A stretch of 64,000 nt of DNA from Mesorhizobium ciceri WSM4083 (GTDB lineage Bacteria; Pseudomonadota; Alphaproteobacteria; Rhizobiales; Rhizobiaceae): contig NZ_KI912610.1 of the NCBI RefSeq assembly GCF_000519305.1, forward strand, positions 183-64,182, given 5' to 3'. A program made the position numbers and the translations under genes. Below, one piece after another: positions 390 to 35,538 of this stretch (the stretch's first letter is position 1; every line of letters starts with the position of its first letter). The notes below the pieces were generated by a model. It saw only the letters and a program-made list of their open reading frames with translations. It was not told the origin of the DNA and did not search any database.

Positions 390-502
390 GGCGTTGGCGC
401 TGGCGGGCCGTTTCGAATAGGGTGGGTGGCTACGATCTGGCAAGAAGCGGCGAGGCAGCCGCTATGGATTCCAGACAAGAACAGTTTCAGGGAAGAACCA
501 CC

Positions 503-2077
503 ATGAGCGAACACGCGGCAGTCGATCAGGAAGCGTCAAACGCGCGACGTGGGCGCGGCGCCAGTGGCGGGGCTGCAGCCCGGCGGGCAGCACGTTCGGG
601 CGGTGGCCCGGGTACGCAGCTCACCTACATCAAACGCAAGATCAACGTTTATGAGGTGCTGGACGAGGAAGGCCTGGCGCTGATCGAGAAGAACACCGAT
701 ACGGTGCTCGAGGAGATCGGCATCATCTTCCGCGACGACGCGGAGGCGTTGCAACTGTGGAAAGAGGCCGGCGCCGACGTCAAGGGCGAGCGCGTGCACT
801 TTCCGAAGGGGCTGTGCCGTTCGCTGCTTAAGACCGCGCCGTCCGTCTACACCCAGCACGCCCGCAATTCCGAGCGTTCGGTGCAGATCGGCGGCAATGC
901 CACCGTTTTCGCGCCGGTCTACGGTCCGCCCTTCGTGCGTGACCTCGATGGCGTCAGGCGTTACGCGACGATCGAGGATTTCCAGAATTTCGTGAAGCTC
1001 GCCTATATGGCGCCGTCGATCCACCATTCGGGCGGCACGGTGTGCGAGCCGGTCGATGTGCCGGTCAACAAGCGCCACCTCGACATGATCTACAGCCACA
1101 TCAAATATTCCGACAAGCCGTTCATGGGCTCGGTGACCGCGCCGGAACGCGCCGAAGACACCGTCGCCATGGCCAAAATCGTGTTCGGCGACGATTTCGT
1201 CGAGAACAACACGGTGCTGACCAGCCTGATCAACGCCAATTCGCCGATGGTGTTCGACGAGACCATGCTCGGCGCGCTGAAAGTCTATGCGCGCCACAAC
1301 CAGGCCTGCATCGTCACGCCGTTCATCCTTGCCGGCGCGATGAGCCCGGTGACGGTGGCCGGCACGCTGACGCAGGTTCTGGCCGAAGTGCTGGCCGGCG
1401 CCTCGTTCACGCAGCTGATCCGACCGGGCGCGCCGGTGCTGTTCGGAACCTTCGCCTCGTCGATCTCGATGCAGTCGGGAGCCCCGACCTTCGGCACGCC
1501 GGAGCCGTCGCTGGTGTCTTATGGCGCCGCACAGCTGGCGCGCCGTCTCGGCCTGCCGTTCCGTACCGGCGGTTCGCTCTGCGCGTCCAAGGTTCCGGAT
1601 GCGCAGGCGGCCTATGAGAGCGCCAACACGCTGAACTCGACCATCCTGGCCGGCACCAATTTCGTGCTGCATTCGGCCGGCTGGCTCGAGGGCGGGCTGG
1701 CGTCCTGCTACGAGAAATTCATGATGGACATCGACCAGCTCGGCATGACGCAGAAATTCTCAGAGGGCGTCGATCTGTCGGAAAACGGCCAGGCGATGGA
1801 CGCCATCCGCCAGGTCGGCCCGGGCAGCCACTATCTCGGCTGCGACCACACCCAGGCCAATTTCCAGACCGCCTTCTACCGTTCCAACATCGCCGACAAC
1901 AATTCCTACGAGCAGTGGCTGGCCGAAGGCGAGAAGACAGCGCCGCAGCGCGCCAACGAGCTTGCCCGCCGCTGGCTGGAAAGCTACGAGGCGCCGCATC
2001 TCGATCCGAGCATCGACGAAGCGTTGAAGGACTTCATCGCCAAGAAGAAGGGGTCGATGCCCGACGCCTTCACTTGA
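503..2077 (+). CDS. Trimethylamine methyltransferase (MttB) family protein, non-pyrrolysine type
   Basis: This 524-residue protein belongs to the MttB superfamily, whose members transfer a methyl group from a quaternary amine to the cobalt of a partner corrinoid protein. The family core is complete: the INANSPM stretch, VTPFILAGAMSPVT, GAPVLFG, FGTPEPS and HSAGWLEGG. The gene reads through without an in-frame TAG, so it is not a pyrrolysine enzyme of the archaeal trimethylamine type. It resembles the class containing the glycine betaine methyltransferase MtgB. The ATG at 503 was chosen over one at 422 because a GGAAG lies 7 bases upstream and the extra 27 residues look non-coding. The corrinoid gene is divergent. 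A homologue lies at 22309-23886. The substrate cannot be read from sequence. Confidence 0.88.
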   Translation: MSEHAAVDQEASNARRGRGASGGAAARRAARSGGGPGTQLTYIKRKINVYEVLDEEGLALIEKNTDTVLEEIGIIFRDDAEALQLWKEAGADVKGERVHFPKGLCRSLLKTAPSVYTQHARNSERSVQIGGNATVFAPVYGPPFVRDLDGVRRYATIEDFQNFVKLAYMAPSIHHSGGTVCEPVDVPVNKRHLDMIYSHIKYSDKPFMGSVTAPERAEDTVAMAKIVFGDDFVENNTVLTSLINANSPMVFDETMLGALKVYARHNQACIVTPFILAGAMSPVTVAGTLTQVLAEVLAGASFTQLIRPGAPVLFGTFASSISMQSGAPTFGTPEPSLVSYGAAQLARRLGLPFRTGGSLCASKVPDAQAAYESANTLNSTILAGTNFVLHSAGWLEGGLASCYEKFMMDIDQLGMTQKFSEGVDLSENGQAMDAIRQVGPGSHYLGCDHTQANFQTAFYRSNIADNNSYEQWLAEGEKTAPQRANELARRWLESYEAPHLDPSIDEALKDFIAKKKGSMPDAFT

Positions 2078-2166: not shown

Positions 2167-2862
2167 ATGATTGCGCCTGCCGGCAGCGTTGACGGCATTG
2201 CTGCGGCGCTCCTTGCCAACGGCCTTGTTCTTCGCGGCGGTTTCAATTTTACGCCAGGCGAAGCGCCGCCAACAGGATCGCATGGTGCGCCGGCAGCGGC
2301 CGTTCTGCTGGTGGGACAGGCGGGCGCGGCACCCTGGCCGCATTTCCTGCGCTGGCGCGAAAGCCAGCCGGAGCAAATCGCCAATCCGCTCGACACCTGG
2401 TCGCGTGAGGTGATCGGCGCGGTGGCGCAGGATTTTGGCGCACGGGCGATTTCTCCGTCGGACAAGCCCTATCTGCCGTTCCAGCAATGGGCGATGAGGG
2501 CGGAGGGACTGAAGTCGTCGCCGCTCGGCATCCTCATGCATCCGCAATACGGGCTATGGCATGCCTATCGCGGTGCGCTGCTGTTCGAGGACGAACTTCC
2601 GATTCAAGCCGGCGAAGCGGCGCCTCACCTTTGCGATAGCTGCGTCGAGAAACCTTGCCGGAAATCTTGTCCGGTCGACGCCTATTCCGCGCAAGGATTC
2701 GCTTATCAATCCTGCCTGGCGCATGTGCGGGGAGCGAGTGGCGAGCCGTGCCGCAGCGGCGGCTGCCTTGATCGCAATTCGTGCCCCTATGGCACGGAGT
2801 ATCGCTATCCGCCGGAGGTTCAGGCCTTCCACATGGCGAGCTTCGCACGAGCCACCAACTGA
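2167..2862 (+). CDS. Iron-sulfur (4Fe-4S ferredoxin-type) protein downstream of mttB1
   Basis: This is a 231-residue soluble protein. Its C-terminal third carries cysteines in a C-x2-C-x4-C-x3-CP pattern (CDSCVEKPCRKSCP), then further cysteines ending in a CPYG motif. This spacing is typical of proteins binding one or two 4Fe-4S clusters and recalls the ferredoxin part of QueG-like proteins. The N-terminal 140 residues show no motif I recognise. It follows mttB1 by 89 bases on the same strand and is probably cotranscribed. A role in reducing or reactivating the corrinoid cofactor is a reasonable inference. Its ATG overlaps the TGA of an open frame that continues in phase from the mttB1 stop. 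The only Shine-Dalgarno-like string, AAGGA, is almost touching the ATG. Confidence 0.7.
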   Translation: MIAPAGSVDGIAAALLANGLVLRGGFNFTPGEAPPTGSHGAPAAAVLLVGQAGAAPWPHFLRWRESQPEQIANPLDTWSREVIGAVAQDFGARAISPSDKPYLPFQQWAMRAEGLKSSPLGILMHPQYGLWHAYRGALLFEDELPIQAGEAAPHLCDSCVEKPCRKSCPVDAYSAQGFAYQSCLAHVRGASGEPCRSGGCLDRNSCPYGTEYRYPPEVQAFHMASFARATN

Positions 2863-14175: not shown

Positions 14176-15213
14176 TCAGGCCCGGCTGCGGCGGCGCTCG
14201 CGGCGGGCTTCGCTGGTCTCGGCGGTGTTTTCCGTCGCGACCTTGTTGCGCATCGGACCAATGCGCTCAACGATCGCGGCAACCGTCGGCCGATCCGCCC
14301 TGGTGTGCGCGTCGAGCGCCTTGCGCATGGCGGCAAGGTGCAGGAACGAGGTGCCGCAGCAGCCGCCGATAATCTTGGCGCCGCCATCGACAGCGAGGCG
14401 CACATAATCGGCCATCAGTTCGGGCGTGCCGGAATAATGGATTTCGGTGCCGCGGAATTCGGGAATGCCGCAATTGCCCTTGACGATCACCGTGGCCTCC
14501 GGCTTCGCCTCCGTCATGTCGAGCAGCGAGGCCAGGATGTCGGATGCGCCGACGCCGCAATTGGCACCAACGCCGAGAGGCGCCTGCGACAGTCCGTCGG
14601 TGACGCCGTGGATATCCCTGGGCAGCAGGCCCATCATGGTGCGGCCGGCGGTGTCGAAGGAACCGGTATAGGTGTAGGGCAGGCCGACGCGGATGGCAGC
14701 CTCGGCGGCGGCGCGGATCTCGTCGGGAGCCGACATCGTCTCGATCCAGGCGACTTCGGCGCCGCCTTCCTTGAGACCCTCGATCTGCTCGACGAAAGCG
14801 TCGACCGCCTCGTCATAGGTCATGGCGCCGAGCGGCACCAGCAATTCGCCTGTCGGGCCGACCGAGCCGGCGACGATCACCTTGCGGCCGGCCTTGCCGG
14901 CGACCGCACGCGCAAGCTCGGCGGCGCGCTTGTTCAACGCGTGCACGCGATCCTGGGCATGGTGCAGCTTCAAGCGGTGACGGGTGCCGCCGAACGAGTT
15001 GGTGAGGATGATGTCGGCGCCGGCATCGACGAAATTCTGATGCAGGCTGGTGATGGTGTCGGGCGCCGTCTCGTTGAGCAGCTCTGGCGCCTCGCCCGCC
15101 TCCAGCCCCATGGCGAACAGGTTTGTGCCGGTGGCGCCATCGGCCAGCAGCACGCCCTTTTCAGCCAGCAGCGCATCGATCGGGTTGGTCGTCGTCATCG
15201 GATTGGCTTTCAT
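14176..15213 (-). CDS. bmt: Betaine-homocysteine S-methyltransferase (Bmt/BHMT family)
   Basis: This is a 345-residue cytosolic TIM-barrel enzyme of the homocysteine S-methyltransferase family. It transfers a methyl group from glycine betaine (or a related sulfonium donor) to homocysteine, giving methionine and dimethylglycine. The three zinc cysteines are present: one in GANCGVG and two in IGGCCGT. The substrate motif DGATGTN is near the N-terminus. It starts at ATG 15213, with an alternative at 15198; neither has a clear ribosome-binding site. Dimethylglycine would feed the FAD/GcvT dehydrogenases elsewhere in the window. An S-methylmethionine or DMSP donor is possible. Confidence 0.85.
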   Translation of the reverse strand: MKANPMTTTNPIDALLAEKGVLLADGATGTNLFAMGLEAGEAPELLNETAPDTITSLHQNFVDAGADIILTNSFGGTRHRLKLHHAQDRVHALNKRAAELARAVAGKAGRKVIVAGSVGPTGELLVPLGAMTYDEAVDAFVEQIEGLKEGGAEVAWIETMSAPDEIRAAAEAAIRVGLPYTYTGSFDTAGRTMMGLLPRDIHGVTDGLSQAPLGVGANCGVGASDILASLLDMTEAKPEATVIVKGNCGIPEFRGTEIHYSGTPELMADYVRLAVDGGAKIIGGCCGTSFLHLAAMRKALDAHTRADRPTVAAIVERIGPMRNKVATENTAETSEARRERRRSRA

Positions 15214-15333: not shown

Positions 15334-16191
15334 TCAGACCGTGCCTGACGGGAATGACATGCCGGCCAGTTTGTGCGCGAAGCCCGCCGCTTCATGCGCA
15401 TTGATGTCGGCGGCCCGGATCAGATTGTCGAAATGCTGGATCAGCGTCTGGATCGGCTGGGTGGCGTTGAGCACCAGATACATGTCGCCGACATAGATGG
15501 CGGCGCGATAGGGGCCGAAGATGGTGTAAGGGATCGAATAGCGCATCCGCCCGTCATAGAGAAACAGCCGGAAGGTCGGGTAGAGGTCGTCGAGCAGCGT
15601 CGCCATGTGCAGCAACTGGGCGCGCCGGTCGGCTTCGGGGAAACGGTCCCAGACACCCAGCCCGCGGGCAAAAATCTCCAGCGTGTGGCGCGGCATGCAG
15701 ACTTCCATGTCGGTTTCCGGCCGCCTGTTGTAGTCGATGCGGTATTGCGTTTCTCCGGCTTGCGCCAGGCGGCTCTTGTTGGTGATACCGGCTTCGTAGT
15801 CGACCAGTGCTTCGGTGCGCAGGAGGTCGGGGATGCCGGCCGGCACGTAGCGGATCTTGGTGCCGGCCGCCTCCGCATGCCATTTGGCCAGCAACGTGCG
15901 GTCGAAACCGTCCGGTGCCTCTTCTATCTCCAGGCTCTCGCGGATTTCGCCGGTGAGACCCTCGTCCTGGCTGAGGCCGAGAAGCCAATCGAGCGACACT
16001 TTGAACTCGGCGGCGATGTTGAGCAGCGTTTCGGCGCGGGGCAGGCGGGTCGAGGCGCCCGACAGCAGCTGCGACAGCGCCGAGCGGTCGATGCCGACCG
16101 CGGTCGCGAAGGCCGACTGGTTGAGGTCGGAGCGTGTCAAGAGCATTTTCAGGCGTTCGCGGAAGATCGTCGACAGGTCGCGCTTGTCCAT
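15334..16191 (-). CDS. XRE-family regulator with a large C-terminal sensor domain
   Basis: This is a 285-residue regulator. An N-terminal Cro/CI helix-turn-helix (NQSAFATAVGIDRSALSQLLSG, about residues 23-45) is followed by a roughly 200-residue domain that I do not recognise by name. The latter contains aromatic-rich stretches such as GRMRYSIPYTIFGPYRAA. It lies just upstream of bmt on the same strand and divergent from a fatty acid desaturase gene, so both are candidate targets. No ligand is evident. Confidence 0.82.
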   Translation of the reverse strand: MDKRDLSTIFRERLKMLLTRSDLNQSAFATAVGIDRSALSQLLSGASTRLPRAETLLNIAAEFKVSLDWLLGLSQDEGLTGEIRESLEIEEAPDGFDRTLLAKWHAEAAGTKIRYVPAGIPDLLRTEALVDYEAGITNKSRLAQAGETQYRIDYNRRPETDMEVCMPRHTLEIFARGLGVWDRFPEADRRAQLLHMATLLDDLYPTFRLFLYDGRMRYSIPYTIFGPYRAAIYVGDMYLVLNATQPIQTLIQHFDNLIRAADINAHEAAGFAHKLAGMSFPSGTV

Positions 16192-16379: not shown

Positions 16380-16420
16380 CCAATTGGGGTTCCGGCGACT
16401 GAGGGGCAGTGGTCGATAGC

Positions 16421-17431
16421 ATGACGAGCAAGAGCATCAGGCGACACAGCGCACCGGCCATCGAGTGGCCGACCGTGGTACTCGCCTTTTTCTGCTACGC
16501 AACATGGCTCGCCACCGGTTTCCTGCTCTGGCCATCCTACCCCGTCCTGGCGCTCGCCATCCTGGCTTTGACCGCCGCATTGCAATCGTCGATCATGCAC
16601 GAAGTGCTGCACGGGCATCCGACACGCAACGCGCGGGTCAATGAAGCCTTCGTGTTTCTGCCGATCGGTCTGGTCTGGCCGTTCCGCCGCTTCAAGACAA
16701 TCCATCTGCGTCACCACGCCGACGAGCGGCTGACCGACCCGCTGGACGATCCGGAAAGCTATTATCAGGCGCTCTGGCAGCATGACGAGCTGCCGCCGAC
16801 GATGAAATTCCTGCTCAAGATCAACAACACCATGGCCGGCCGCTTCGTGCTCGGCCCGTGGCTGTCCTGCGTCGGCTTCTTCATCGACGATGCCAAGCAG
16901 GTGATCGCCGGCGACAAGCCGATCCGCAAGGCCTGGCTGCTGCATGCGATCGGCCTTGCTATCGTGCTGCCGATCGTCCAGTTCGGCTTCGGCATCCCGC
17001 TGTGGCTTTACATTCTGGTGCCGGTCTGGCTTGGCCAATCGCTGATCTCGATCCGCACTTTCGCCGAGCATCAATGGTCGGAACATCCGGAAGGCCGCAC
17101 GGTGATCGTCGAGCGCTCGCCGCTGTCGTTCCTGTTCCTCAACAACAATCTGCACTTCGTCCATCACAAGACCCCGACTGTGGCGTGGTACAAGCTGCCC
17201 AAGCTGTTTCGTGACCGCCGTGAGGAATGGCTGCGGATGAACAATGGCTATGCCTATCCCAACTATTTCGCGCTGATCAAAGCCTATGCGTTCAAGGCGA
17301 AGGAGCCGATCGTGCACCCGGTGCTGCGGCGTCAAGCCGAGCCGGGCAGGGCCTTCAAGCCGCGCATCAGGGCGCGCAGCATCAGCGGGCTCGGCAGTGC
17401 GCCGGTTCCCGCCGAGCCGCCGAAGGAATAA
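16421..17431 (+). CDS. Membrane fatty acid desaturase family protein
   Basis: This is a 336-residue integral membrane di-iron enzyme. The three histidine clusters are visible: HEVLHGH (about residue 60), HLRHH (about 90) and HFVHH (about 245), plus an extra EHQW. Hydrophobic segments flank the first two. The family includes acyl-lipid desaturases and hydroxylases. The start could be GTG 16409 or ATG 16421; a GAGGGG at 16401-16406 is too close to one and too far from the other. It is divergent from the XRE regulator, with a 24-bp inverted repeat in the leader. The lipid or other substrate is unknown. Confidence 0.86.
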   Translation: MTSKSIRRHSAPAIEWPTVVLAFFCYATWLATGFLLWPSYPVLALAILALTAALQSSIMHEVLHGHPTRNARVNEAFVFLPIGLVWPFRRFKTIHLRHHADERLTDPLDDPESYYQALWQHDELPPTMKFLLKINNTMAGRFVLGPWLSCVGFFIDDAKQVIAGDKPIRKAWLLHAIGLAIVLPIVQFGFGIPLWLYILVPVWLGQSLISIRTFAEHQWSEHPEGRTVIVERSPLSFLFLNNNLHFVHHKTPTVAWYKLPKLFRDRREEWLRMNNGYAYPNYFALIKAYAFKAKEPIVHPVLRRQAEPGRAFKPRIRARSISGLGSAPVPAEPPKE

Positions 17432-17522: not shown

Positions 17523-18350
17523 ATGAGTGAATTGGTTGCGGCGTTGCCGATGTATGACTGGCCCGAAATGCGCGGCGAGGTCGACGCGCAATGGATGCTG
17601 CTGCGCGACGCGTTTCGGCAAAAGGGTATCGACGCACCGCAAACCATCGTGCGGCGCAATGGAGACCTGCCGCCGGTGCCGGGCGGTATTCGTGATGCTG
17701 CCGGTGCATTGATCGCACCCGATCCAGCGACATTGCCGCCGGACGAGCTCGATTTTCACATACTGTGGCTGCACCCGGCGCTGCTGTTCGCGCAGACCTG
17801 CTGGGGGCCGATGGAACTCGGCCTGTCCAGGCATGTGCAGGTGGTTGCCCAGCCAAGCTACGACGCCTACGAAGGCGGGCAGGGCGAGCTCTATTCCAGC
17901 GCCATCGTCATGCTGGCGGATGGCGCGCCGTCGGTTGCCTCGCCCAATGATGGCAGCCCGCTGATCCCACTCGATCGGATCCGCGGCAAGCGCTTCACCT
18001 TCAACAGCCTCGATTCGATGTCGGGGTTCCTCGGTTTGACGCGCGACCTGGAGGCGATGGGCGAGAGCCTTGACCTCTTTGCCTCGCGCAGCGAAAGCGG
18101 TGGGCACCGTTCCTCGATCGTCGCAATTGCAGAGGGCAAGGCCGATATAGCGGCCATCGACTGCGAGAGCTGGGCACTGGCGCAACGCTGCGAGCCGGCG
18201 GCGAAAAAGGTGGCGGTCGTCGGCTGGACCGGACGGCGCAAAGGCCTGCCCTACATCACCGCCGCAGGGACACCGGAAAGGACGGTTGGGGCGTTGCGCG
18301 AGGCCATTGCCGGGCTAGCCGAGCAGTCTCTTATCCAAGGGGTAGGTTGA
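17523..18350 (+). CDS. PhnD/SsuA-like substrate-binding protein without a signal peptide
   Basis: This is a 275-residue protein of the periplasmic-binding fold type II, phosphate/phosphonate (PhnD) group. Family marks include the domain-crossing stretch IRGKRFTFNSLDSMSGFL and IAEGKADIAAIDC. No N-terminal signal peptide is visible (it begins MSELVAALPMYDW), so it is probably cytosolic, unlike usual ABC transporter binding proteins. No permease or ATPase is adjacent. Its last 36 bases overlap the end of the convergent DddP-like gene. A sensory or enzymatic role is possible. Confidence 0.75.
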   Translation: MSELVAALPMYDWPEMRGEVDAQWMLLRDAFRQKGIDAPQTIVRRNGDLPPVPGGIRDAAGALIAPDPATLPPDELDFHILWLHPALLFAQTCWGPMELGLSRHVQVVAQPSYDAYEGGQGELYSSAIVMLADGAPSVASPNDGSPLIPLDRIRGKRFTFNSLDSMSGFLGLTRDLEAMGESLDLFASRSESGGHRSSIVAIAEGKADIAAIDCESWALAQRCEPAAKKVAVVGWTGRRKGLPYITAAGTPERTVGALREAIAGLAEQSLIQGVG

Positions 18351-19670
18351 GAGCTGTTCGTTGCCCGTATCGGTGATCAGTATCTGTTCCTCGATCTTGA
18401 CGCCTTCGCGCCCGCCAAGCCTGCCGATATAGCTTTCCACGCACAGCACCATGCCCGGTTCCAGCACGCCGTCCGGAGTGTCCGATGTCCAGTCGCTGGC
18501 ATGCGGCAAGGTTGGGTATTCATCGGCCAGGCCGACGCCGTGATAGAGCACACCGTATCGCGTCGGGAAGCAGTCTCCCGGTGGCACGGCCGAGCGTTCG
18601 ACGAGGTCGCGAAACGAGATGCCCGGCTGCATCAGTTCGGTGTTGTGCCTGATCTGGTCAGCGGCGATGCGGAACAGGTCGCGCTGTTCATTGGTTGGCT
18701 TTGTGTCCCCACACAGCCATGTGCGCGACAGGTCGGCGCAGAACCCGTAAGGGCCGATCAGGTCGGTGTCGAAGGCGACGAGATCGCCAGCCTCGATTTT
18801 CCGCGACGAGCATTCCTGGAACCATGGATTGGTGCGCGGGCCTGACGTCAGCAGTCGCGTCTCGATCCATTCGCCGCCGCGCGCGATGTTGCCGCGGTGC
18901 AATTCCGCCCACAGCTCGTTTTCGGAAATCCCCGGCTTCAGCGCCTGTTTCATCTCGCCCATCGCCGCCTCGCAAGCGACGATGGCGCGGCGCATGGCGA
19001 GGATCTCGTCCGGTGATTTGATCAGCCGCGCGTTCTCCATCACCGCTTCGCCATTGCCGATGGAAATCCCGAGCCGCGCCAGTTCTTCGACGCCCTCCGG
19101 ATTGATATGGTCGACGGCGATGCGGCTGTTGCCGCCGCCATGCTCTTTCACCAGATCGGCGATCCCGGCGGCCCAGCGGCGAACTTTCTGCTCCGTCAGG
19201 TCGCCGCCATAAAGATACATCCACGACACCGCCGGCCGCACTTCGTCGACGACGCCGGAGTGGTCGGACAGGTGCTCGCAGGAAAAATAGTCGAACAGCA
19301 GCACCGGCCCTTCGGTGGCGACAAAGCAATGCCGCGTCGGGTTGTGCGCCACCCAAAGCTGCATGTTGGTGCTGTCGGTGGCGTAGCGGATGTTGACGGG
19401 GTCGTAGAGCAGGGCGCCGGCATAGCCGCGCCGCTTCAGCTCGGCGCGGATGCGCTCCAGCCGGTATTGACGCATGGCAGGAAGATCGGGCGCGGCAATG
19501 CCTGCCGCAGCCCATTCAGCCTCGGCCTGCGCGCCATAGCCCAGCACATGCTGGTTGAGCGAAGCCGCCTTCCGGCGGGAGGCGTCGCGGAGGGCCTCGA
19601 TCGAGCCTGGCTCGAACGGCATGATCTTGCGATGGCGGCCAAAGCTGCCCTTCGGCCCCGCGCTGCCCAT
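18315..19670 (-). CDS. dddP: DddP-type M24-family enzyme (candidate DMSP lyase)
   Basis: This is a 451-residue pita-bread-fold protein (creatinase N-terminal plus M24 domain). Stretches such as NIRYATDSTNMQLW, GGEWIETRLL and SGPRTNPWFQEC match DddP DMSP lyases as I remember them. The six metal ligands are D301, D303, D313, H377, E412 and E427. They are each shifted by exactly six from the ligands I recall for Ruegeria DddP (D295, D297, D307, H371, E406, E421), and D383 matches its catalytic D377. DddP splits DMSP into dimethyl sulfide and acrylate. Creatinase or aminopeptidase activity cannot be excluded. Its ribosome-binding site GAGG overlaps the stop region of the upstream FAD/GcvT gene. 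Confidence 0.78.
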   Translation of the reverse strand: MGSAGPKGSFGRHRKIMPFEPGSIEALRDASRRKAASLNQHVLGYGAQAEAEWAAAGIAAPDLPAMRQYRLERIRAELKRRGYAGALLYDPVNIRYATDSTNMQLWVAHNPTRHCFVATEGPVLLFDYFSCEHLSDHSGVVDEVRPAVSWMYLYGGDLTEQKVRRWAAGIADLVKEHGGGNSRIAVDHINPEGVEELARLGISIGNGEAVMENARLIKSPDEILAMRRAIVACEAAMGEMKQALKPGISENELWAELHRGNIARGGEWIETRLLTSGPRTNPWFQECSSRKIEAGDLVAFDTDLIGPYGFCADLSRTWLCGDTKPTNEQRDLFRIAADQIRHNTELMQPGISFRDLVERSAVPPGDCFPTRYGVLYHGVGLADEYPTLPHASDWTSDTPDGVLEPGMVLCVESYIGRLGGREGVKIEEQILITDTGNEQLSTYPLDKRLLG

Positions 19671-22308: not shown

Positions 22309-23886
22309 TTAAAAATCGGTCGGCGCGCCGCCTTCGGACCGGCGCTTGGCGACGAAGGCGTTGAGTTCCTCGCGGATGGCCGGGTCCATGTAAGGCTCCT
22401 CATAGGACGCCAGCCGCTCTTTCCAGACCTTGTTGGCCTTTTCGAGCGCCGTCGGCGAGCCGGCTTCTGCCCAGGTCTCGTAGTTGCGCCAGTCGGAGAG
22501 GATCGGCGAGTAGAAGGCGGTCTTGTAGCGGTCCTGTGTGTGCTGGGTGCCGAAGAAATGGCCGCCGGGGCCGACCGACTGGATGGCGTCGAAGCCGAGC
22601 GCCTCTTCGGAAAGGTCGAGCGGGGTCAGGAATTCGGCCACCATCTGCAGCAGGTCGATGTCCAGGATGGTCTTCTCGTAGGAGCAGCGCAGACCGCCCT
22701 CCAGCCAGCCCGCGGCATGCATCATCAGATTGCCGCCGCCCTGGATGGCGCCCCACAGCGAGAACACGCTTTCATAGGCCGCCTGCGCGTCGACCGTGTT
22801 GGCGGCGCAGGTGTTGGAGGTGCGGTAGGGAATGTTGTAGCGGCGGGCAAGCTGGCCGCCGACGAGCTGCGCTTTCATGTATTCCGGCGTGCCGAACGCC
22901 GGCGAACCGGACTTCATGTCGACATTGGAGGTGAAGCCGCCATAGCCGACGGGTGCGCCCTTGCGCACCATCTGGGCGAAGGCGATGCCGGCAAGCGCCT
23001 CGGCGTTCTGCTGCACCAGTGCGCCGGCGATGGTGACAGGCGCCATGGCGCCCGACAGGGTGAACGGCGTCACGACGACGACCTGGCCCTTGCTCGACAT
23101 CTGGATGATGCCTTCCATCATCGGCACGTCGAGCTTGAGCGGCGAATTCGTGTTGATGATGGTGAAGACGGACGGCTCTTCCAGCATCTGCTCGTGGCTG
23201 ATGCCGCGCGCGATCCTGGCGATCTCGATGCCGTCGACATTGCGTTCCTTGCCGAGCGAATAGATGTGGAACACCTTGTCGGTGAGCACGCTGAGATCGC
23301 GGATGCATTCGAGGTGGCGGACGGACGGATGGATATCGGTCGGCTCGACCGGGTAGCCGCCCGTGCAGTTCAGGATGTTGTGCATCTGCGCGAGCTTTAA
23401 GAAATTGCGGTAGTCCTGCTGGTTGCCGGGCCGGCGGCCGCGATCGATGTCGGAGCAATTGGGCGCCGAGGCCATCATCGAGATGATCACATTGTTGCCG
23501 CCAAAGCGCACATTGTGCGCTGGATTGCGGGCATGGATGGTGAACTCCGACGGGCAGTGCGACACCAGTTCGAGGATCATGTCGCTGTCGAAGCGCACCC
23601 GCTCGCTGCCGTCGCGCACATCGGCGCCATGCGCCTTCATGATGCTGCGGGCTTCGTCATGCAGCACGTCGACGCCGATTTCCCTGAGCACGCGCAGGGA
23701 AGCGAGGTGGATCGATTCCAGCTCGTCGTCGGAGACCAGCCTGGTCGGCGCCAGTGGGTTCTTCAACTGGCGAAAAGCCGGCTGCTCGAAAGCGGCCGAG
23801 CCGCCGGCGCGCTTTCCGGCGCGGCCGCCGCGACGGGCGCGGTCAGTGGCCAATGCCGGTTCCAAGGGTTGTAGGGCGGCGGTCAT
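22309..23886 (-). CDS. Trimethylamine methyltransferase (MttB) family protein, non-pyrrolysine type, copy 2
   Basis: This is a 525-residue MttB-superfamily protein, homologous along its length to mttB1 (for example INTNSPL, VTPFTLSGAMAPVT, FGTPEYM, HAAGWLEGG). No in-frame TAG is present, so it is not pyrrolysine-dependent. The predicted reaction is transfer of a methyl group from a quaternary amine to a corrinoid protein. No corrinoid gene is adjacent here; the partial one at 1-230 may serve both. It leads an operon with the FAD/GcvT dehydrogenase and the DddP-like gene, which points to stepwise demethylation of one substrate. Sequence divergence from mttB1 suggests different substrates. Confidence 0.88.
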   Translation of the reverse strand: MTAALQPLEPALATDRARRGGRAGKRAGGSAAFEQPAFRQLKNPLAPTRLVSDDELESIHLASLRVLREIGVDVLHDEARSIMKAHGADVRDGSERVRFDSDMILELVSHCPSEFTIHARNPAHNVRFGGNNVIISMMASAPNCSDIDRGRRPGNQQDYRNFLKLAQMHNILNCTGGYPVEPTDIHPSVRHLECIRDLSVLTDKVFHIYSLGKERNVDGIEIARIARGISHEQMLEEPSVFTIINTNSPLKLDVPMMEGIIQMSSKGQVVVVTPFTLSGAMAPVTIAGALVQQNAEALAGIAFAQMVRKGAPVGYGGFTSNVDMKSGSPAFGTPEYMKAQLVGGQLARRYNIPYRTSNTCAANTVDAQAAYESVFSLWGAIQGGGNLMMHAAGWLEGGLRCSYEKTILDIDLLQMVAEFLTPLDLSEEALGFDAIQSVGPGGHFFGTQHTQDRYKTAFYSPILSDWRNYETWAEAGSPTALEKANKVWKERLASYEEPYMDPAIREELNAFVAKRRSEGGAPTDF

Positions 23887-29058: not shown

Positions 29059-30438
29059 ATGACCTATCAGAATTATTCGCTGAAGCAGCTTCAGCAGATC
29101 GACGCCGCGCATCATCTGCATCCGTTCACCGACCACAAGGAAATGCGCGGGGCCGGGTCGCGCATCATCACCCATGCCAACGGCCCTTTCATCTACGATT
29201 CCGAAGGGACGGAAATCCTCGACGGCATGGCCGGGCTGTGGTGCGTCAACATCGGCTATGGCCGTGACGAGCTTGCCGAGGCCGCCTATGCCCAGATGAA
29301 GGAACTGCCTTACTACAACTCCTTCTTCAAATGCTCGACGCCGACGCCAGTGCTGCTGTCCAAGAAGCTGGCGGAGATCGCGCCGAAGCACGTCAACCAG
29401 GTGTTCTATGGCTCGTCGGGCTCGGAGGCCAACGACACGGCACTGCGTCTCGTGCGCCACTATTGGGTGCTGGAAGGCCAGCAGGAGAAGAACCGCATCA
29501 TCTCGCGCAAGATGGCCTATCACGGCTCGACCGTTGCCGGCACCTCGCTCGGCGGCATGGATGGCATGCACAAGCAGCTCAACGGAGCGGTGCCCAACAT
29601 CGTCCATGTGATGATGCCCTACGCCTATGAACTGGCGCTGCCTGGCGAGAGCGATCATGATTTCGGTCTGCGCGCGGCCGGGGCTGTCGAGGAGGCGATC
29701 CTCGAAGCCGGCGCCGACAAGGTTGCCGCGTTTATCGGCGAGCCGGTCATGGGGGCGGGCGGCGTGAAGATACCGCCGGCGAGCTATTGGCCGGAAGTGC
29801 AGCGCATCTGCCGTAAATACGATGTCCTGCTGATGCTGGACGAAGTCATCACCGGTTATGGCCGCACCGGCGAATGGTTCGCCGCCCAGACGCTCGGCAT
29901 CGAGCCCGACACGATCACCACCGCCAAGGCGCTGACATCGGGCTACCAACCGCTGTCGGCGTTGCTGGTCGGCGACCGCATCGCCTCGACGCTGGTCGAG
30001 AAGGGCGGCGAGTTCAACCATGGCTACACCTATTCCGGGCACCCGGTGGCCTGCGCCGTGGCGCTGAAGAACCTCGAGATCATCGAGCGCGAAGGGCTGG
30101 TCGACCGCGTCCGGAACGACACCGGCCCTTACTTCGCCAAGGCGTTGCAGGAGCGCATTGCCGGACATGATCTGGTCGGCGAGGTGCGTTCGATCGGACT
30201 GATGGGCGCGATCGAGATCGTCAAGGACAAGGCGACCAAGGAGCGGTTCCTTCCGGCTGGAAGTGCGGCGGTAACCGTGCGGGATTACGCCATCGCGAAT
30301 GGCATGATGCTGCGCGCCACCGGCGACACGATGATCCTGTCGCCGCCGCTGATCTGGACCCGTGATACGATCGATATGGCCTGCGACCGCATCTCGAAAG
30401 CGTTGGATCTGGCGCAAGCCGATCTTAGCAAGCGGTAG
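29059..30438 (+). CDS. Class III PLP-dependent aminotransferase (omega-amino acid:pyruvate type)
   Basis: This is a 459-residue enzyme. The PLP lysine is in TTAKALTSGYQP, the cofactor aspartate in LLMLDEVITGYGRTG, and the phosphate region in YGSSGSEAND. Length and motifs match the omega-amino-acid/taurine/putrescine:pyruvate aminotransferases that are widespread in Rhizobiales. It transfers an omega-amino group to pyruvate or another keto acid. It stands alone, followed by a strong terminator. The donor amine cannot be named from sequence. The gabD product at 61039 could process a resulting semialdehyde. Confidence 0.9.
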   Translation: MTYQNYSLKQLQQIDAAHHLHPFTDHKEMRGAGSRIITHANGPFIYDSEGTEILDGMAGLWCVNIGYGRDELAEAAYAQMKELPYYNSFFKCSTPTPVLLSKKLAEIAPKHVNQVFYGSSGSEANDTALRLVRHYWVLEGQQEKNRIISRKMAYHGSTVAGTSLGGMDGMHKQLNGAVPNIVHVMMPYAYELALPGESDHDFGLRAAGAVEEAILEAGADKVAAFIGEPVMGAGGVKIPPASYWPEVQRICRKYDVLLMLDEVITGYGRTGEWFAAQTLGIEPDTITTAKALTSGYQPLSALLVGDRIASTLVEKGGEFNHGYTYSGHPVACAVALKNLEIIEREGLVDRVRNDTGPYFAKALQERIAGHDLVGEVRSIGLMGAIEIVKDKATKERFLPAGSAAVTVRDYAIANGMMLRATGDTMILSPPLIWTRDTIDMACDRISKALDLAQADLSKR

Positions 30439-31692: not shown

Positions 31693-31864
31693 AGCCTAAA
31701 CACGGGCGCGACAGCTGACAGTTCGGCCGGCTTTGTGGCCCAACAGTCGGGTGACCACTGCTGCGTTCCAGACAAGGAAATATGCTGAAAAGCCGGATGC
31801 TGTCTGACAGTATGCGCATGCGTTCATGTGGACCGGTGGCAATTTCAGACAAGGGCACGCGCAT

Positions 31865-34300
31865 ATGGTGAGTTCCTTTCGTGCGGTCGTGGTCGGTGGC
31901 GGCTGTGTGGGTGCCGGCATTCTCTACGGCCTGGCAAAGCGCGGCTGGACCGATGTGGCATTGCTGGAGCGAACGCAGCTTACGGCCGGGTCGACATGGC
32001 ATGCCGCGGGGCTCATCCCCTCTTACGCGCGCAGCCGCAATGTCGGCCGCATGATCGCCAGGTCGATCGAAATCTATGAGGGACTGGAGGCGGAGACTGG
32101 CCAGAACGTCGGCTGGCACAAATGCGGCCAGCTGCGCATTGCCAACACGCGCGACAGGCTGGACGAGTACAGAAGCTACATGGACGTTGCCGAGGTCCAG
32201 GGTGTGCGGGCCCGGATCGTATCTCCCGCGGAAGCGCGAGAGATCTGGCCGCTGCTCGACAACAACAGCATGCTGGGTGCGCTCTACCATCCCGATGACG
32301 GCCACATTGCACCGGCCGATGTCACCCAGGCCATGGCCAAGGGTGCGCGCGACCTCGGCGCGAAGATCCATCTCGATACCGAGGTCGTGGGTTTCGAGCG
32401 GATGCCGAGCGGCGAGTGGAGGGTCAAGACCTCACGCGGTGACATCGTCTGCGAACATGTCATCCTCGCAACCGGCAATTACGCACGCCAGACAGGCGCT
32501 ATGCTAGGCCTGGACATTCCCGCGATCCCGATCCTGCATCAGTACTGGATCACCGAGGCGGTTCCCGAGATTGTGGAACGCAAGCGGCTTGGTCTTCCGG
32601 AAATGCCGATCCTCAGGGACGAGGGTTACGAGGGCTATCTGCGCGAAGAAGGCGACGGGCTGATGTTCGGTCCCTATGAGCGCACCGAGCAGCTCAAGCT
32701 GTTCGCTGAAAACGGCGTCCCGGAATGGTTCGGCGCCGATCTGCTCGATGAGGATTTCGACGCCGTCTCCTGGAACTGGGAGCGCGCGACCGAACTGGTC
32801 CCCGCGCTCGGACGCGCCGGCATCAAGCGGAATGTGCGAGGACCTTTCCAGATGACCGCCGATGAACTGCCGCTGATGGGGCCGGCGTGGGGCCTGGAAA
32901 ATGTCTGGCTCGCCGAAGGCGTGCCGGGAGGCATCCTTTGGGGCGGTGCGATTGGCTACTACCTCTCCGAACGGATCGTCGAGGGTGGCAACAGCATTGA
33001 CACGGCGGAACTGGATCCCCGTCGGTTCGGCCACTATGCCAACAAGAACTGGACCCGGGCAAAGGTCAGGGAAGCGTGGGGCACCCACGCCGTACAGCAC
33101 TATCCAGGCCAGGACATGCCGGCGGCGCGACCGCAGAAGACGGCTCCGTCCTACGACCGTCTAAGCCAGCTCGGCGCGGTATGGGATGTGTTGAACGGCT
33201 GGGAGATGCCGAGCTGGTTTGCGCCGGCGGGCATCGAAGCGCGCAATGTCTACAGCTGGCGCTGGACCGCCAAAGGGAACCACGTCGCCGGGGAGGTCCA
33301 GGCTGTCCGCCAGGCCGCCGGCCTGGTCGAGATGTCTCCCATGACCAAGTTCGAAGTCAGCGGGCTGGGCGCCGAGGGCTGGCTCGACGGAATCCTGGCC
33401 AACAGACTGCCGCGTCCCGGTAGTGTCGCTCTTGCCCATCACCTGACGCCGGCCGGCGGCGTGCAGGCCGAGTATGTGGTGGCGCGGCTGCAGAGCGACC
33501 TGTTCTACCTCATATCGACGCCACGCGCCGAGCGCTGGAACCTTGACGATCTCAGCCGGCTGTTGCCGAAGGACGGCAGCCTGCATCTGCGCAACGTCAC
33601 GGAGGATCGCGGCAGCTTCACGGTGGTTGGGCCGAAGGCGCGCGACATATTGCAGCCGCTGACGGAGATCGACCTCTCCAACGAGGCCTTCCCATGGTTC
33701 AGCGTGCAGTCCGGCACTGTCGGCATGGCCAGCGACGTTCGGCTGCTGCGCGTCAACTATTCCGGCGAACTGGGATGGGAACTCTATCATCCGCTCTGCT
33801 ATCAGCGGCATTTGCTGGATGCGCTGCTGGCATCGGGAGAGGCACACGGGCTGAGGCTGGTCGGGCTTCAAGCGCTGGAATCGCTTCGTCTCGATAAATC
33901 CTACCGCGCCATGTATCGCGATATGAATCTCGAACTGTCGGCCTGGGAAAGCGGCCTCGACCGATTCGTCAGCCTCGACAAAGGGAACTTCATCGGCCGC
34001 GCGGCACTGGTCGCAAAACAGAAGCAGGTGACACGTCGGATCGCCACGTTGTCGATCGATACGGATGGTGCGAGCGCGTTCGCCTTCGAGGGCGTTTACC
34101 GCGAAGGCGAGCTCGTCGGCCACATCACCTCGGCGGGCTACTCCTACACTTTTGGTCACGACATCGCACTTGCGCTGTTGCCCCTGAACCTTGTGTCGCC
34201 CGGCACCGAGCTCGAGGTGTCCATCCTCGGCGAGCGCCGCGCGGCGAAGGTGGTCGCCGACTCGCCCTATGATCCGGAAGGCACCCGCGGGCGCATGTGA
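31865..34300 (+). CDS. FAD-dependent dehydrogenase with GcvT folate domain, copy 2
   Basis: This is an 811-residue protein of the same two-domain plan as the 19680-22250 product. The FAD domain begins AVVVGGGCVGAGILYGL and keeps the covalent-flavin histidine in GSTWHAAG. The GcvT half has NYSGELGWELYH and GLDRFVSLDKGNFIGR. Predicted to oxidise an N-methyl compound such as dimethylglycine or sarcosine and to load the carbon on tetrahydrofolate. The ATG at 31865 was preferred to an upstream in-frame start at 31826. It is flanked by a direct repeat, which may record insertion. It differs enough from copy 1 to expect another substrate. Confidence 0.84.
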   Translation: MVSSFRAVVVGGGCVGAGILYGLAKRGWTDVALLERTQLTAGSTWHAAGLIPSYARSRNVGRMIARSIEIYEGLEAETGQNVGWHKCGQLRIANTRDRLDEYRSYMDVAEVQGVRARIVSPAEAREIWPLLDNNSMLGALYHPDDGHIAPADVTQAMAKGARDLGAKIHLDTEVVGFERMPSGEWRVKTSRGDIVCEHVILATGNYARQTGAMLGLDIPAIPILHQYWITEAVPEIVERKRLGLPEMPILRDEGYEGYLREEGDGLMFGPYERTEQLKLFAENGVPEWFGADLLDEDFDAVSWNWERATELVPALGRAGIKRNVRGPFQMTADELPLMGPAWGLENVWLAEGVPGGILWGGAIGYYLSERIVEGGNSIDTAELDPRRFGHYANKNWTRAKVREAWGTHAVQHYPGQDMPAARPQKTAPSYDRLSQLGAVWDVLNGWEMPSWFAPAGIEARNVYSWRWTAKGNHVAGEVQAVRQAAGLVEMSPMTKFEVSGLGAEGWLDGILANRLPRPGSVALAHHLTPAGGVQAEYVVARLQSDLFYLISTPRAERWNLDDLSRLLPKDGSLHLRNVTEDRGSFTVVGPKARDILQPLTEIDLSNEAFPWFSVQSGTVGMASDVRLLRVNYSGELGWELYHPLCYQRHLLDALLASGEAHGLRLVGLQALESLRLDKSYRAMYRDMNLELSAWESGLDRFVSLDKGNFIGRAALVAKQKQVTRRIATLSIDTDGASAFAFEGVYREGELVGHITSAGYSYTFGHDIALALLPLNLVSPGTELEVSILGERRAAKVVADSPYDPEGTRGRM

Positions 34301-34630: not shown

Positions 34631-35515
34631 TTACGCAGGGTTACCCCTGAGAAAATTAATTATGCCGGAGAAATCGACGCCGCCATGTCCCTGGGCGTTG
34701 AACAGGGCATAGAGCTGGGCTGCTTCGGCACCAAGCGGCGTTACAGCACCCGCACCTTGCGCGGCTTCCTGGGACAATTTCAGGTCTTTCAGCATCAGGG
34801 CTGCTGCAAATCCTGGGTTGTAGTCCCTGTTTGCGGGCGAAGTCGGCACCGGGCCGGGCACCGGGCAATAGGTGGTCAAGGACCAGCACTGGCCGGAGGA
34901 GGTCGAGGCGACGTCGAACAGCGCCTGATGCGACAGGCCGAGTTTTTCGGCCAGAACGAAGGCTTCGGCGACACCGATCATCGAAATGCCGAGGATCATG
35001 TTGTTACAGATCTTTGCCGCCTGGCCGGCGCCGTCGCCGCCGCAATGGACGATGCGACCGGCCATCGGCTTCAGGATCGGCTCGGCAGTTGCAAAGGCGT
35101 CATCGGAGCCTCCGGCCATGAAGGTCAGCGTGCCGGCCGCGGCGCCGCCGGTGCCGCCCGAGACGGGCGCATCGATGGACAGCAGGCCGTGTCTGGCGGC
35201 AATAGCGTGCGCCTTGCGCGCCGATTCGACATCGATAGTCGAGGAATCGATGAACAGCGCGCCCTTTTTCGCCTTGGGCGCTATGTCCTCATAGACCGAC
35301 AGCACATGCTTGCCCGCAGGTAGCATGGTGATCACCATTTCGGCATCCTTCACCGCGGCCAAGGCATTCGCCATGATCGTCACGCCATGTTCTTTGGCGA
35401 CGGTGAGGTTCTCCGGCATGAGGTCGAAACCGCTCACCGTATGCCCCGCCTTGACCAGATTGGCAGCCATTGGGTTGCCCATGTTCCCGAGGCCGATGAA
35501 GGCAATGGTGCTCAT
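34631..35515 (-). CDS. mmsB: 3-hydroxyisobutyrate dehydrogenase
   Basis: This is a 294-residue NAD-dependent enzyme of the beta-hydroxyacid dehydrogenase family. The Rossmann motif GLGNMGNPMA is at the N-terminus, the substrate stretch DAPVSGGTGGA is at about residue 120, and the catalytic lysine is in GAGQAAKICNN. It oxidises 3-hydroxyisobutyrate to methylmalonate semialdehyde in valine breakdown. The acyl-CoA dehydrogenase gene lies 23 bases upstream on the same strand, so the pair is an operon. Confidence 0.92.
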   Translation of the reverse strand: MSTIAFIGLGNMGNPMAANLVKAGHTVSGFDLMPENLTVAKEHGVTIMANALAAVKDAEMVITMLPAGKHVLSVYEDIAPKAKKGALFIDSSTIDVESARKAHAIAARHGLLSIDAPVSGGTGGAAAGTLTFMAGGSDDAFATAEPILKPMAGRIVHCGGDGAGQAAKICNNMILGISMIGVAEAFVLAEKLGLSHQALFDVASTSSGQCWSLTTYCPVPGPVPTSPANRDYNPGFAAALMLKDLKLSQEAAQGAGAVTPLGAEAAQLYALFNAQGHGGVDFSGIINFLRGNPA

Positions 35516-35538
35516 CGATTTCTCCTGAATAGTTGCCG

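Follow-up and report, generated by a model that had tools for sequence, protein, structure and literature searches.

Does the DddP-like protein of the M24 fold encoded in an mttB operon of Mesorhizobium ciceri WSM4083 cleave DMSP, or does it serve in the catabolism of another onium compound? The question concerns a window of 64,000 nucleotides (the whole stretch of DNA analyzed), in which the gene stands third, as the initial annotation had stated, after those for an MttB-family methyltransferase and an FAD/GcvT dehydrogenase. All three are read from the minus strand, which the initial annotation did not state, with gaps of 55 bp between the MttB and FAD/GcvT genes and 9 bp between the latter and the M24 gene (Table 1). 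The M24 cluster thus holds together an MttB-family methyltransferase and an amine dehydrogenase of the folate-linked type. Among the best solved relatives of the former, 9yce is titled glycine betaine methyltransferase.

Table 1. Features of the M24 cluster and of other genes considered in the window
Product	Coordinates	Strand	Evidence or remark
Second MttB-family methyltransferase of the window	422..2077	+	
Betaine--homocysteine methyltransferase family protein	14176..15213	-	PRK07534, 561 bits (cut-off 338)
HTH_3 (XRE-type) regulator	15334..16191	-	Divergent from the desaturase gene
Fatty-acid-desaturase-family protein	16409..17431	+	In 25/29 close orthologue loci
PhnD-like substrate-binding-domain protein	17523..18350	+	Convergent; 36 bp overlap with the 3' end of the M24 gene
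DddP-like M24-fold metalloenzyme, 451 aa	18315..19670	-	Profile, phmmer, residue and fold evidence
FAD-dependent DAO + GCV_T protein, 857 aa	19680..22253	-	Best solved relatives: mammalian dimethylglycine dehydrogenases 5l46/4pab/4p9s
MttB-family methyltransferase, 525 aa, without in-frame stop	22309..23886	-	Best solved relatives: 4yyc, 2qne, 9yce

Active site and predicted fold of the M24 protein

In the alignment, D301, D303, D313, H377, E412 and E427 of the M24 protein correspond to all six metal ligands of DddP. These are D295, D297, D307, H371, E406 and E421 in RdDddP (PMC4108388), and the shift is exactly +6 in each case. The same shift relates D383 to the catalytic aspartate of RlDddP, D377. 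The constant offset of six that the initial annotation had given for these seven residues was therefore borne out by alignment to RdDddP and RlDddP. The substrate tyrosine Y366 of RlDddP is kept as Y372; the titles of PDB entries 4S00 and 4S01 name the RlDddP variants Y366A and D377N. W106 aligns to a tryptophan of RlDddP that is likewise kept, and which we take to be residue 95, with a role in the onium site.

Homology to DddP, also claimed at the outset, is confirmed by phmmer, in which 4RZY matches at E 1e-113 and 4B28, the RdDddP of Roseobacter denitrificans, at 5e-108 (42-45% identity for the two proteins). The next solved M24 enzyme reaches only E 7e-17 with the same query. At the level of sequence the likeness is far above chance, and a chance agreement of the residues is ruled out by the E value of 1e-113. 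A comparison of the predicted structure with DddP, suggested in the initial annotation, gave a concordant result. The AlphaFold2 model (pLDDT 85.5) has a DddP-type N-domain and a pita-bread fold; the best four Foldseek matches are all DddP entries, with a TM of 0.87 and an rmsd of 1.7-1.8 to the RlDddP entries 4S01, 4S00 and 4RZY (0.86-0.87 when RdDddP is included).

When the nine active-site residues were compared among 92 aligned homologues, they were identical in 87, the exceptions being L002, L009, L160, L161 and L171. Hence, this set of residues has no power to single out the M24 protein of the window. The W/Y/D signature was also discarded as proof of DMSP activity, as it is common to the same 87 rows, including those of R. 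phaseoli that lie in betaine clusters.

Position of the M24 protein in the DddP tree

On the DddP equivalog model of NCBIfam (NF043017), the M24 protein scores 479.9 bits, below the cut-off of 600. Proteins of Paracoccus yeei (849.8 bits), Oceanimonas (629.5), Oceanisphaera (626.5) and Pseudomonas shirazensis (614.2) score above it.

Phylogenetic analysis involved three sets of proteins. The first tree contained 97 rows, with one protein per locus, and included 6 of the 29 Mesorhizobium-type loci plus the window. A more careful tree and the AU tests used 83 of these rows, omitting 14 that were long-branched or near-duplicates. A third tree incorporated rows of the genus Oceanimonas and had 92 rows, after dropping 17 of the 97 and the candidate L162 and adding 12 (L160, L161 and L163-L172). 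Two row pairs of the M clade stem from identical copies of the same contig. The M24 protein (P0001, from which its clade takes its name) lies outside the clade of the crystal-structure DddPs: support was 100/100 for the strict DddP clade and 99/96 for the P0001 clade, and AU tests gave p values of 3.2e-4 for grouping P0001 with Roseobacter-type DddP and 2e-33 for grouping it with Oceanimonas. Membership in strict DddP was thus rejected on both the model cut-off and the tree.

The two clades also differ in fixed residues. R228 and S288 are found in 20/20 rows each of the P0001 clade, versus C and G in 37/37 rows each of strict DddP. Eleven separating positions were found and four were used, which read W166/R228/S288/Q339 in the M24 protein and its clade and F/C/G/H in strict DddP, RlDddP and RdDddP included. 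These four positions offer a simple first filter for metagenomes, though intermediates with mixed forms exist.

A placement outside the DddP clade had been regarded in the initial annotation as telling against its reading. Such a placement was indeed found with respect to the crystal-structure DddPs; however, the test is weakened because a lineage with demonstrated DMSP lyase activity probably lies outside that clade too. The DddP of the scallop symbiont HWgs001 has demonstrated activity and is nearest to DddP2 of O. doudoroffii, likewise a DMSP lyase (PMC10989825). Its residues D263, D275, H339 and E390 have spacings of 12, 64 and 51, matched among the 92 rows only by L008, L169 and L172, all three placed outside the strict DddP clade; the comparison uses printed residue numbers, among which E385 misfits. 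L172 and L169 are therefore presumed to be of the DddP2 type. They have the same nine active-site residues and about 50% identity to P0001, but belong to another clade, and their H-to-E spacing is one residue longer. The P0001 clade thus seems to have the crystal-structure DddPs on one side and the DddP2/HWgs001 type on the other. This bracketing is tentative, as the root depends on a single outgroup, the own paralogue L002, which has a long branch. Given an active site common to 87/92 rows and a second DMSP-lyase lineage that seems to lie on the other side, DMSP cleavage by the M24 protein is possible. Fungal FgDddP confers DMS production although it shares only 32% identity with RdDddP (PMC4108388), a case that advises caution in reading function from clades.

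Conservation of the neighborhood

The order MttB, FAD/GcvT, M24 on the same strand is kept in 29/29 close orthologue loci, and the PhnD-like gene is also present in all of them. The gap between the FAD/GcvT and M24 genes exceeds 300 bp in 14 of the 29; in the two of these loci that were inspected, it contains unrelated-looking ORFs. Among loci whose flanks each spanned 5 kb or more, an MttB gene was nearby in 15/15 of the P0001 clade versus 2/17 of strict DddP (Fisher 2e-7, a value that ignores kinship). For any flank length, the counts were 16/20 and 3/35. The M24 protein is thus, as judged from sequence and gene order, a member of a separate, MttB-linked clade and not a strict DddP.

Several other clades of relatives adjoin Rieske N-demethylase-like, DAO, betaine ABC or BCCT genes, and many strict DddP loci are devoid of any of the marker genes. 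Rieske, BCCT and DAO neighborhoods are also found around genes that appear to be of the DddP2 type, so a betaine-like neighborhood is compatible with DMSP cleavage.

Distribution on land

The initial annotation considered such a setting unusual outside marine bacteria. The counts refute rarity on land: 178 plasmid records match the M24 protein at 1e-50 (86 from Rhizobium and 66 from Sinorhizobium), 50/297 sampled genomes of the order match it at 1e-60, and 57/61 genomes of the genus Mesorhizobium hold a match in its score band. In 4/61 genomes of the genus, this score type coexists with a DddP that exceeds the cut-off; hence, the two types need not be interchangeable. The presence of Mesorhizobium DddP in metagenome counts was already known: a 2020 paper presents Mesorhizobium as a prominent DddP carrier and tallies "Mesorhizobium DddP" as DMSP lyase (PMC7039863).

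Proposed function and alternatives

The favored, though tentative, interpretation, to which we give a probability of roughly 45%, is that the M24 protein may be a DddP-type metal-dependent onium lyase of quaternary-amine catabolism, with a natural substrate likelier to be a nitrogen betaine than DMSP. The suggestion of the initial annotation that it acts on a related betaine or sulfonium is thus upheld as a hypothesis. A nitrogen onium compound would be the most likely substrate because the gene is encoded with MttB and a dimethylglycine-dehydrogenase-like enzyme. On the model of RlDddP, the six ligands would hold a metal pair that grips the substrate carboxylate, and W106 and Y372 would grip the onium group. 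D383 would then take the proton adjoining the carboxylate, upon which the beta carbon would lose its positively charged group to leave an acrylate-type product. A candidate substrate is beta-alanine betaine, which would yield trimethylamine and acrylate; the freed methylated amine would afterwards be demethylated to corrinoid and folate. DMSP cleavage may persist as a side activity.

Certain chemical considerations apply to this proposal. Alpha-betaines such as glycine betaine and proline betaine have no beta leaving group, and lyase chemistry is thus unsuited to the commonest betaines; in addition, amines are worse leaving groups than sulfonium. Ergothionase, the only betaine trimethylamine-lyase known to us, has another fold. 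No corrinoid protein was identified among the scanned ORFs of the window. In the open-access literature we found nothing joining DddP, rhizobia and mttB, nothing on hydroxyproline betaine clusters and nothing on a beta-alanine betaine lyase giving acrylate and trimethylamine; the available portions of PMC3338564 and PMC6309047 contain no test of the P0001 clade.

An extension of the nitrogen-betaine proposal, which we regard as a doubtful speculation, is that the DddP fold was at root part of nitrogen-betaine catabolism. The Mesorhizobium enzyme would then be a metal-dependent N-onium carboxylate beta-lyase, DMSP cleavage would be derived or a side reaction, and some of the 'dddP' genes counted in sediment and soil would be unrelated to DMSP. 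In several clades, DddP-fold genes are accompanied by those for a first-step demethylase of onium compounds (a Rieske enzyme or the corrinoid-type MttB), for an oxidase or dehydrogenase of amines and for a transporter of betaines. The Km of DddP for DMSP is 14-17 mM, and the proposal bears on the old puzzle of millimolar DMSP-lyase Km values by pointing to a possible other ancestral substrate.

Alternatively, though we consider it unlikely, the protein may be a genuine DMSP (or DMSOP) lyase. Cleavage would be ancestral to the W/Y/D family, the DMSP would derive from plants or sediment, and the MttB neighbors would serve co-imported methylated osmolytes. Mesorhizobium genes are tallied as dddP in PMC7039863, and every catalytic residue is conserved, but the DddP model of NCBIfam gives 480 of 600 bits. 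The P0001 clade seemingly stands between two lineages with demonstrated activity; yet it is a separate clade with its own R228 and S288. An AcuI/YhdH-type reductase is encoded elsewhere in the genome (447 bits, cut-off 297), whereas an NCBIfam scan of 20 ORFs of the window gave no match to a DMSP-family model above cut-off. The gene is also present in 57/61 genomes of a soil and legume genus for which, to our knowledge, DMSP is no staple. In addition, R. leguminosarum served as a host unable to catabolize DMSOP (PMC10686828); many R. leguminosarum plasmids carry a DddP2-side homologue, but that host strain may lack the gene. Were DMSP cleaved by the Mesorhizobium clade, land bacteria would have a DMS-making capacity through a gene that is nearly universal in a soil genus. 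If the clade acts on a nitrogen betaine, 'dddP' counts overstate DMSP cleavage.

Somewhat less probable still is a general M24 hydrolase, akin to creatinase, ectoine hydrolase or a peptidase, that would cleave a C-N bond in a methylated amide or amidine, or in an N-methyl amino acid derivative, and pass the product to the dimethylglycine-dehydrogenase-like enzyme. Creatinase (1chm, 1kp0) and the ectoine hydrolase DoeA (6twk) share the M24 fold, with 18-20% identity and a TMq of 0.64-0.69. However, prolidases, creatinases and DoeA are structurally further off than DddP (TMq 0.60-0.69 among the best 50 Foldseek matches), creatinase is absent from the 34 phmmer matches up to 1e-5, and two DoeA models score under their cut-offs (55.2 bits against 575 and 21.7 against 613). 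An enzyme that provides the FAD/GcvT partner with sarcosine or dimethylglycine would fit the operon, and public records title homologues 'Xaa-Pro peptidase family protein'. Nevertheless, all six DddP ligands are intact, D383 occupies, by the assignment of the DddP literature, one of the two substrate-binding His positions of M24 peptidases, and RlDddP has no measurable Val-Pro activity (PMC5395565). A plain peptidase identity was rejected on the Asp at the catalytic position and a fold much nearer to DddP.

A betaine epimerase or isomerase, in which D383 and the metal pair would remove and return the alpha proton and so ready the right isomer for demethylation, is very improbable: its half-reaction equals that of the lyase, and rhizobial DddP2-side homologues adjoin 4-hydroxyproline epimerase, Rieske oxygenase and betaine ABC genes, but such clusters already contain an annotated epimerase, no second acid/base was identified in the M24 protein, and we know of no epimerase precedent in the M24 fold.

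Other genes of the window

Weak matches to DMSP-related models were seen for the FAD/GcvT protein (DmdA, 65.9 of 410 bits) and for 35539-36705 (acryloyl-CoA reductase AcrC, 378.6 of 640 bits). The valine-degradation-like genes at 34631-36705 were considered as an acrylate route and set aside: the fit is loose, they lie about 15 kb off, and they are rarely beside M24 in other loci.

The MtgBCD/E system for glycine betaine demethylation in Ruegeria pomeroyi (PMC12478193) has in common with this region an MttB-family protein, a homologue of the BHMT-like MtgE and dimethylglycine demethylation steps. The terms M24 and desaturase do not occur in the main text of that paper, whereas the Mesorhizobium operon has the former and a desaturase-family gene alongside. 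By analogy, the betaine--homocysteine methyltransferase family protein is likely the counterpart of MtgE, which belongs to the split methionine synthase of Ruegeria. The HTH_3 protein is a possible regulator. As genome background, six MttB-family genes are found in 6.85 Mb.

The M24 protein has the active-site residues and the predicted fold of DddP

By sequence search, the solved structures closest to the M24 protein are RlDddP (4RZY, E 1e-113) and RdDddP (4B28, E 5e-108); the next, a proline dipeptidase, is far weaker (7e-17). The seven residues named in the initial annotation (D301, D303, D313, H377, D383, E412 and E427) are each in place, and the +6 offset holds against both the RdDddP ligand numbers (PMC4108388) and D377 of RlDddP. 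Y372 is the counterpart of Tyr366. When the fold was modelled (AlphaFold2, 20-row alignment, mean pLDDT 85.5), the best four Foldseek matches of the predicted structure were the four DddP structures (TM 0.86-0.87, rmsd 1.7-1.8), with prolidases, creatinase and ectoine hydrolase ranking below them (TMq 0.60-0.69, among the best 50 rows). The presence of a DddP homologue with an intact site is confirmed; its fold, mechanism type and family are already known. Because all nine active-site residues (six metal ligands, D383, Y372 and W106) are common to 87 of 92 aligned rows, this set marks neither DMSP cleavage nor the clade of the M24 protein (P0001).

Altered sites were also seen. A second DddP-like paralogue (own genome C1:1579971-1581131; row L002:1351-2682; 42% identity) lacks the catalytic Asp and the Trp, with Gly and Tyr at these positions. 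Its neighbours, named by ORF reading, are a GlxA-type regulator on one side and an isochorismatase-like gene on the other. Among 61 genomes of the genus, many yield a match with a similar score (about 305-318 bits). A natural homologue on a plasmid of Ensifer adhaerens Corn53 (L009:9947-11158) retains the metal ligands but has Tyr instead of the Trp, and Asn instead of both the Tyr and the catalytic Asp.

An MttB-linked clade separate from strict DddP

In a maximum-likelihood tree of 83 rows, the 33 strict DddP rows (RlDddP, RdDddP, Oceanimonas, Pseudomonas and some from the window's genus) formed one group with support 100/100, and the 19 rows of the P0001 clade (Mesorhizobium, Aminobacter, Roseibium, Kiloniella and others) formed their own (99/96). 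Forcing the P0001 clade together with Roseobacter-type DddP cost 157 log units (AU p 3.2e-4), and with Oceanimonas 226 log units (p 2e-33), p values that are somewhat flattering as the groups were chosen on an earlier tree. Eleven residue positions separate the two clades, and four were used: W166, R228, S288 and Q339 in the M24 protein versus F, C, G and H in strict DddP. R228 and S288 are found in 20/20 P0001-clade rows against C and G in 37/37 strict rows; W166 in 20/20 against F in 36/37; and Q339 in 19/20 against H in 34/37. Rows outside both clades show mixed residues (W-C-S-Q in homologue L102, for example).

Of the 20 P0001-clade rows, 16 have an MttB-family gene no more than 10 kb away, as do 7 of 11 rows of the neighbouring 'M' clade (two identical pairs included) and 3 of 35 loci of strict DddP; flanks are short at many of the loci counted. 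Where each flank is 5 kb or longer, the link is present in 15/15 of the P0001 clade versus 2/17 of strict DddP (Fisher 2.4e-7, kinship ignored). In searches of an open-access library we found no paper that treats this MttB-linked clade as one group marked by fixed diagnostic residues and by a conserved operon. One of the three linked strict loci, L144 (genome G314, of the window's genus), has a strict-type DddP gene near corrinoid-protein-like and MttB-like genes.

A conserved operon, and a gene that is ordinary on land

The M24 gene is indeed third in a same-strand operon, after MttB and FAD/GcvT genes.

Features of the M24 locus and of the rest of the window
Feature	Position	Strand	Basis or remark
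M24 DddP-like protein, 451 aa	18315-19670	-	ORF and DddP similarity
DAO/GCV_T (FAD/GcvT) protein, 857 aa	9 bp upstream of M24 gene	-	best solved relatives mammalian dimethylglycine dehydrogenases, 561 bits
MttB-family methyltransferase	55 bp before DAO/GCV_T gene	-	PF06253, 660.7 bits
PhnD-like protein	17523-18350	+	convergent with M24 gene
Fatty-acid-desaturase-family protein	16409-17431	+	convergent with M24 gene
Protein with Cys-rich, ferredoxin-like C-terminal part	2167-2862	+	directly downstream of mttB1
Class III aminotransferase	29059-30438	+	
Second FAD/GcvT protein	31826-34300	+	
3-Hydroxyisobutyrate and acyl-CoA dehydrogenase genes	34631-36705	-	

The structures nearest to the operon MttB, one of six MttB-family genes in the genome, are 4yyc, 2qne and 9yce, of which 9yce bears the name glycine betaine methyltransferase. 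Beyond the desaturase gene, the order continues with an HTH regulator, followed by a BHMT-type protein; in Ruegeria, the BHMT-like MtgE belongs to a split methionine synthase that is linked to the demethylation of glycine betaine (PMC12478193). No corrinoid protein was identified among the window ORFs scanned. The protein downstream of mttB1, the other MttB-family gene of the window, is possibly, at a guess, a corrinoid-reactivation partner. PhnD-like and desaturase-family genes also occur in Roseibium, Kiloniella and Ahrensia loci; that the desaturase might be an oxygen-dependent N-demethylase partner is likewise a guess.

A locus survey gave at least 594 pattern matches; of those listed, 586 were confirmed relatives and 80 were kept. 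Among the matches listed, the best loci in the genome collection were from Mesorhizobium (93-96% identity), and all 29 loci kept from the Mesorhizobium/Aminobacter/Rhizobiaceae group had the same-strand order MttB, FAD/GcvT, M24 as well as a PhnD-like gene, with desaturase and BHMT genes in 25/29 each. The gap between FAD/GcvT and M24 is below 300 bp in 15/29 and longer in 14/29; two long-gap loci that were inspected contain unrelated-looking ORFs in between.

With the NCBIfam DddP model, 59 of the 61 genomes of the genus gave a match of E 1e-60 or stronger. Matches at 461-486 bits were found in 57/61 (sorted by score, sequence-checked for eight), the M24 protein itself scoring 479.6 bits; five genomes exceeded the 600-bit cut-off, and four of these hold both types. 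In a sample of 297 genomes from the whole order, 50 had a match at E 1e-60, and 178 plasmid records matched at 1e-50, 152 of them from Rhizobium or Sinorhizobium. The gene is therefore ordinary on land, and the earlier premise that it is unusual outside marine bacteria is not supported. A metagenome paper of 2020 already describes Pseudomonas and Mesorhizobium as genera in which DddP was prominent in sediments of the Bohai Sea and the Yellow Sea (PMC7039863), and the accessible part of that paper reports no assay of these proteins.

Possible substrates

As described in PMC5395565, the DMSP carboxylate binds to an iron ion of DddP, the sulfur is held by a Trp and a Tyr, and loss of the alpha proton to an Asp leads to breakage of the C-S bond. 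As these working parts have counterparts in the M24 protein, our best guess is that it would remove an alpha proton and expel a beta onium group. The protein families of the operon suggest that the cell handles a methylated nitrogen compound. Because DddP-like chemistry is here joined with such an operon, we tentatively propose, with a probability of about 0.45, that the M24 protein is a lyase of an N-onium carboxylate in the broad sense. Beta-alanine betaine would be the simplest compound fitting both chemistry and operon, a far more doubtful proposal alongside which we note an AcuI/YhdH-type reductase in the genome.

Alternatively, the protein may cleave DMSP. When present in E. coli, the DddP of the scallop symbiont HWgs001 produces DMS from DMSP; among named proteins it is closest to O. 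doudoroffii DddP2 (55%), and its residues are printed as D263, D265, D275, H339 and E390 (PMC10989825). The resulting spacings of 12, 64 and 51 (a printed E385 misfits and was taken as E375) occur in only 3/92 rows: L008 (Pseudomonas sp. MPC6) and L172 and L169 (genomes from the genus search around Oceanimonas sp. CHS3-5), which fall outside the strict DddP clade. If these rows are of the HWgs001 type, DMSP lyase activity would exist outside strict DddP, and the P0001 clade would lie between two DMSP-cleaving lineages in a tree whose root rests on one long-branched paralogue. Phylogeny takes the M24 protein out of the strict clade, which by the initial annotation's own criterion counts against it, but a DMSP-lyase lineage probably lies outside that clade as well.

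Onium-demethylation genes lie beside members of several clades, not at every locus. In the P0001 neighbourhood these are MttB and FAD/GcvT. In Oceanimonas, Denitromonas and Pseudomonas MPC6 the neighbours are a GbcA-like Rieske gene that scores below its cut-off, together with genes for DAO, aldehyde dehydrogenase, an EutQ-like cupin and BCCT. R. phaseoli and R. leguminosarum likewise have a Rieske gene, here accompanied by FAD oxidoreductase, 4-hydroxyproline epimerase and betaine ABC genes, and L172 and L169 have Rieske, BCCT, LysR and DAO genes beside them. Many strict DddP loci have no marker gene. R. leguminosarum, being unable to catabolise DMSOP, has served as a host (PMC10686828), although many plasmids of this species bear a homologue of this kind (77 matching plasmid records, 76 of them from Rhizobium), which the host strain may or may not share.

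On a Pseudomonas sp. MPC6 plasmid typed as conjugative (L152; NZ_CP034782 150000-199000), a Rieske/DAO/EutQ/DddP-like cluster adjoins a second set made of CoA-transferase, BCCT, iron alcohol dehydrogenase and methylmalonate-semialdehyde dehydrogenase genes. The CoA-transferase/BCCT set resembles a dddD cluster.
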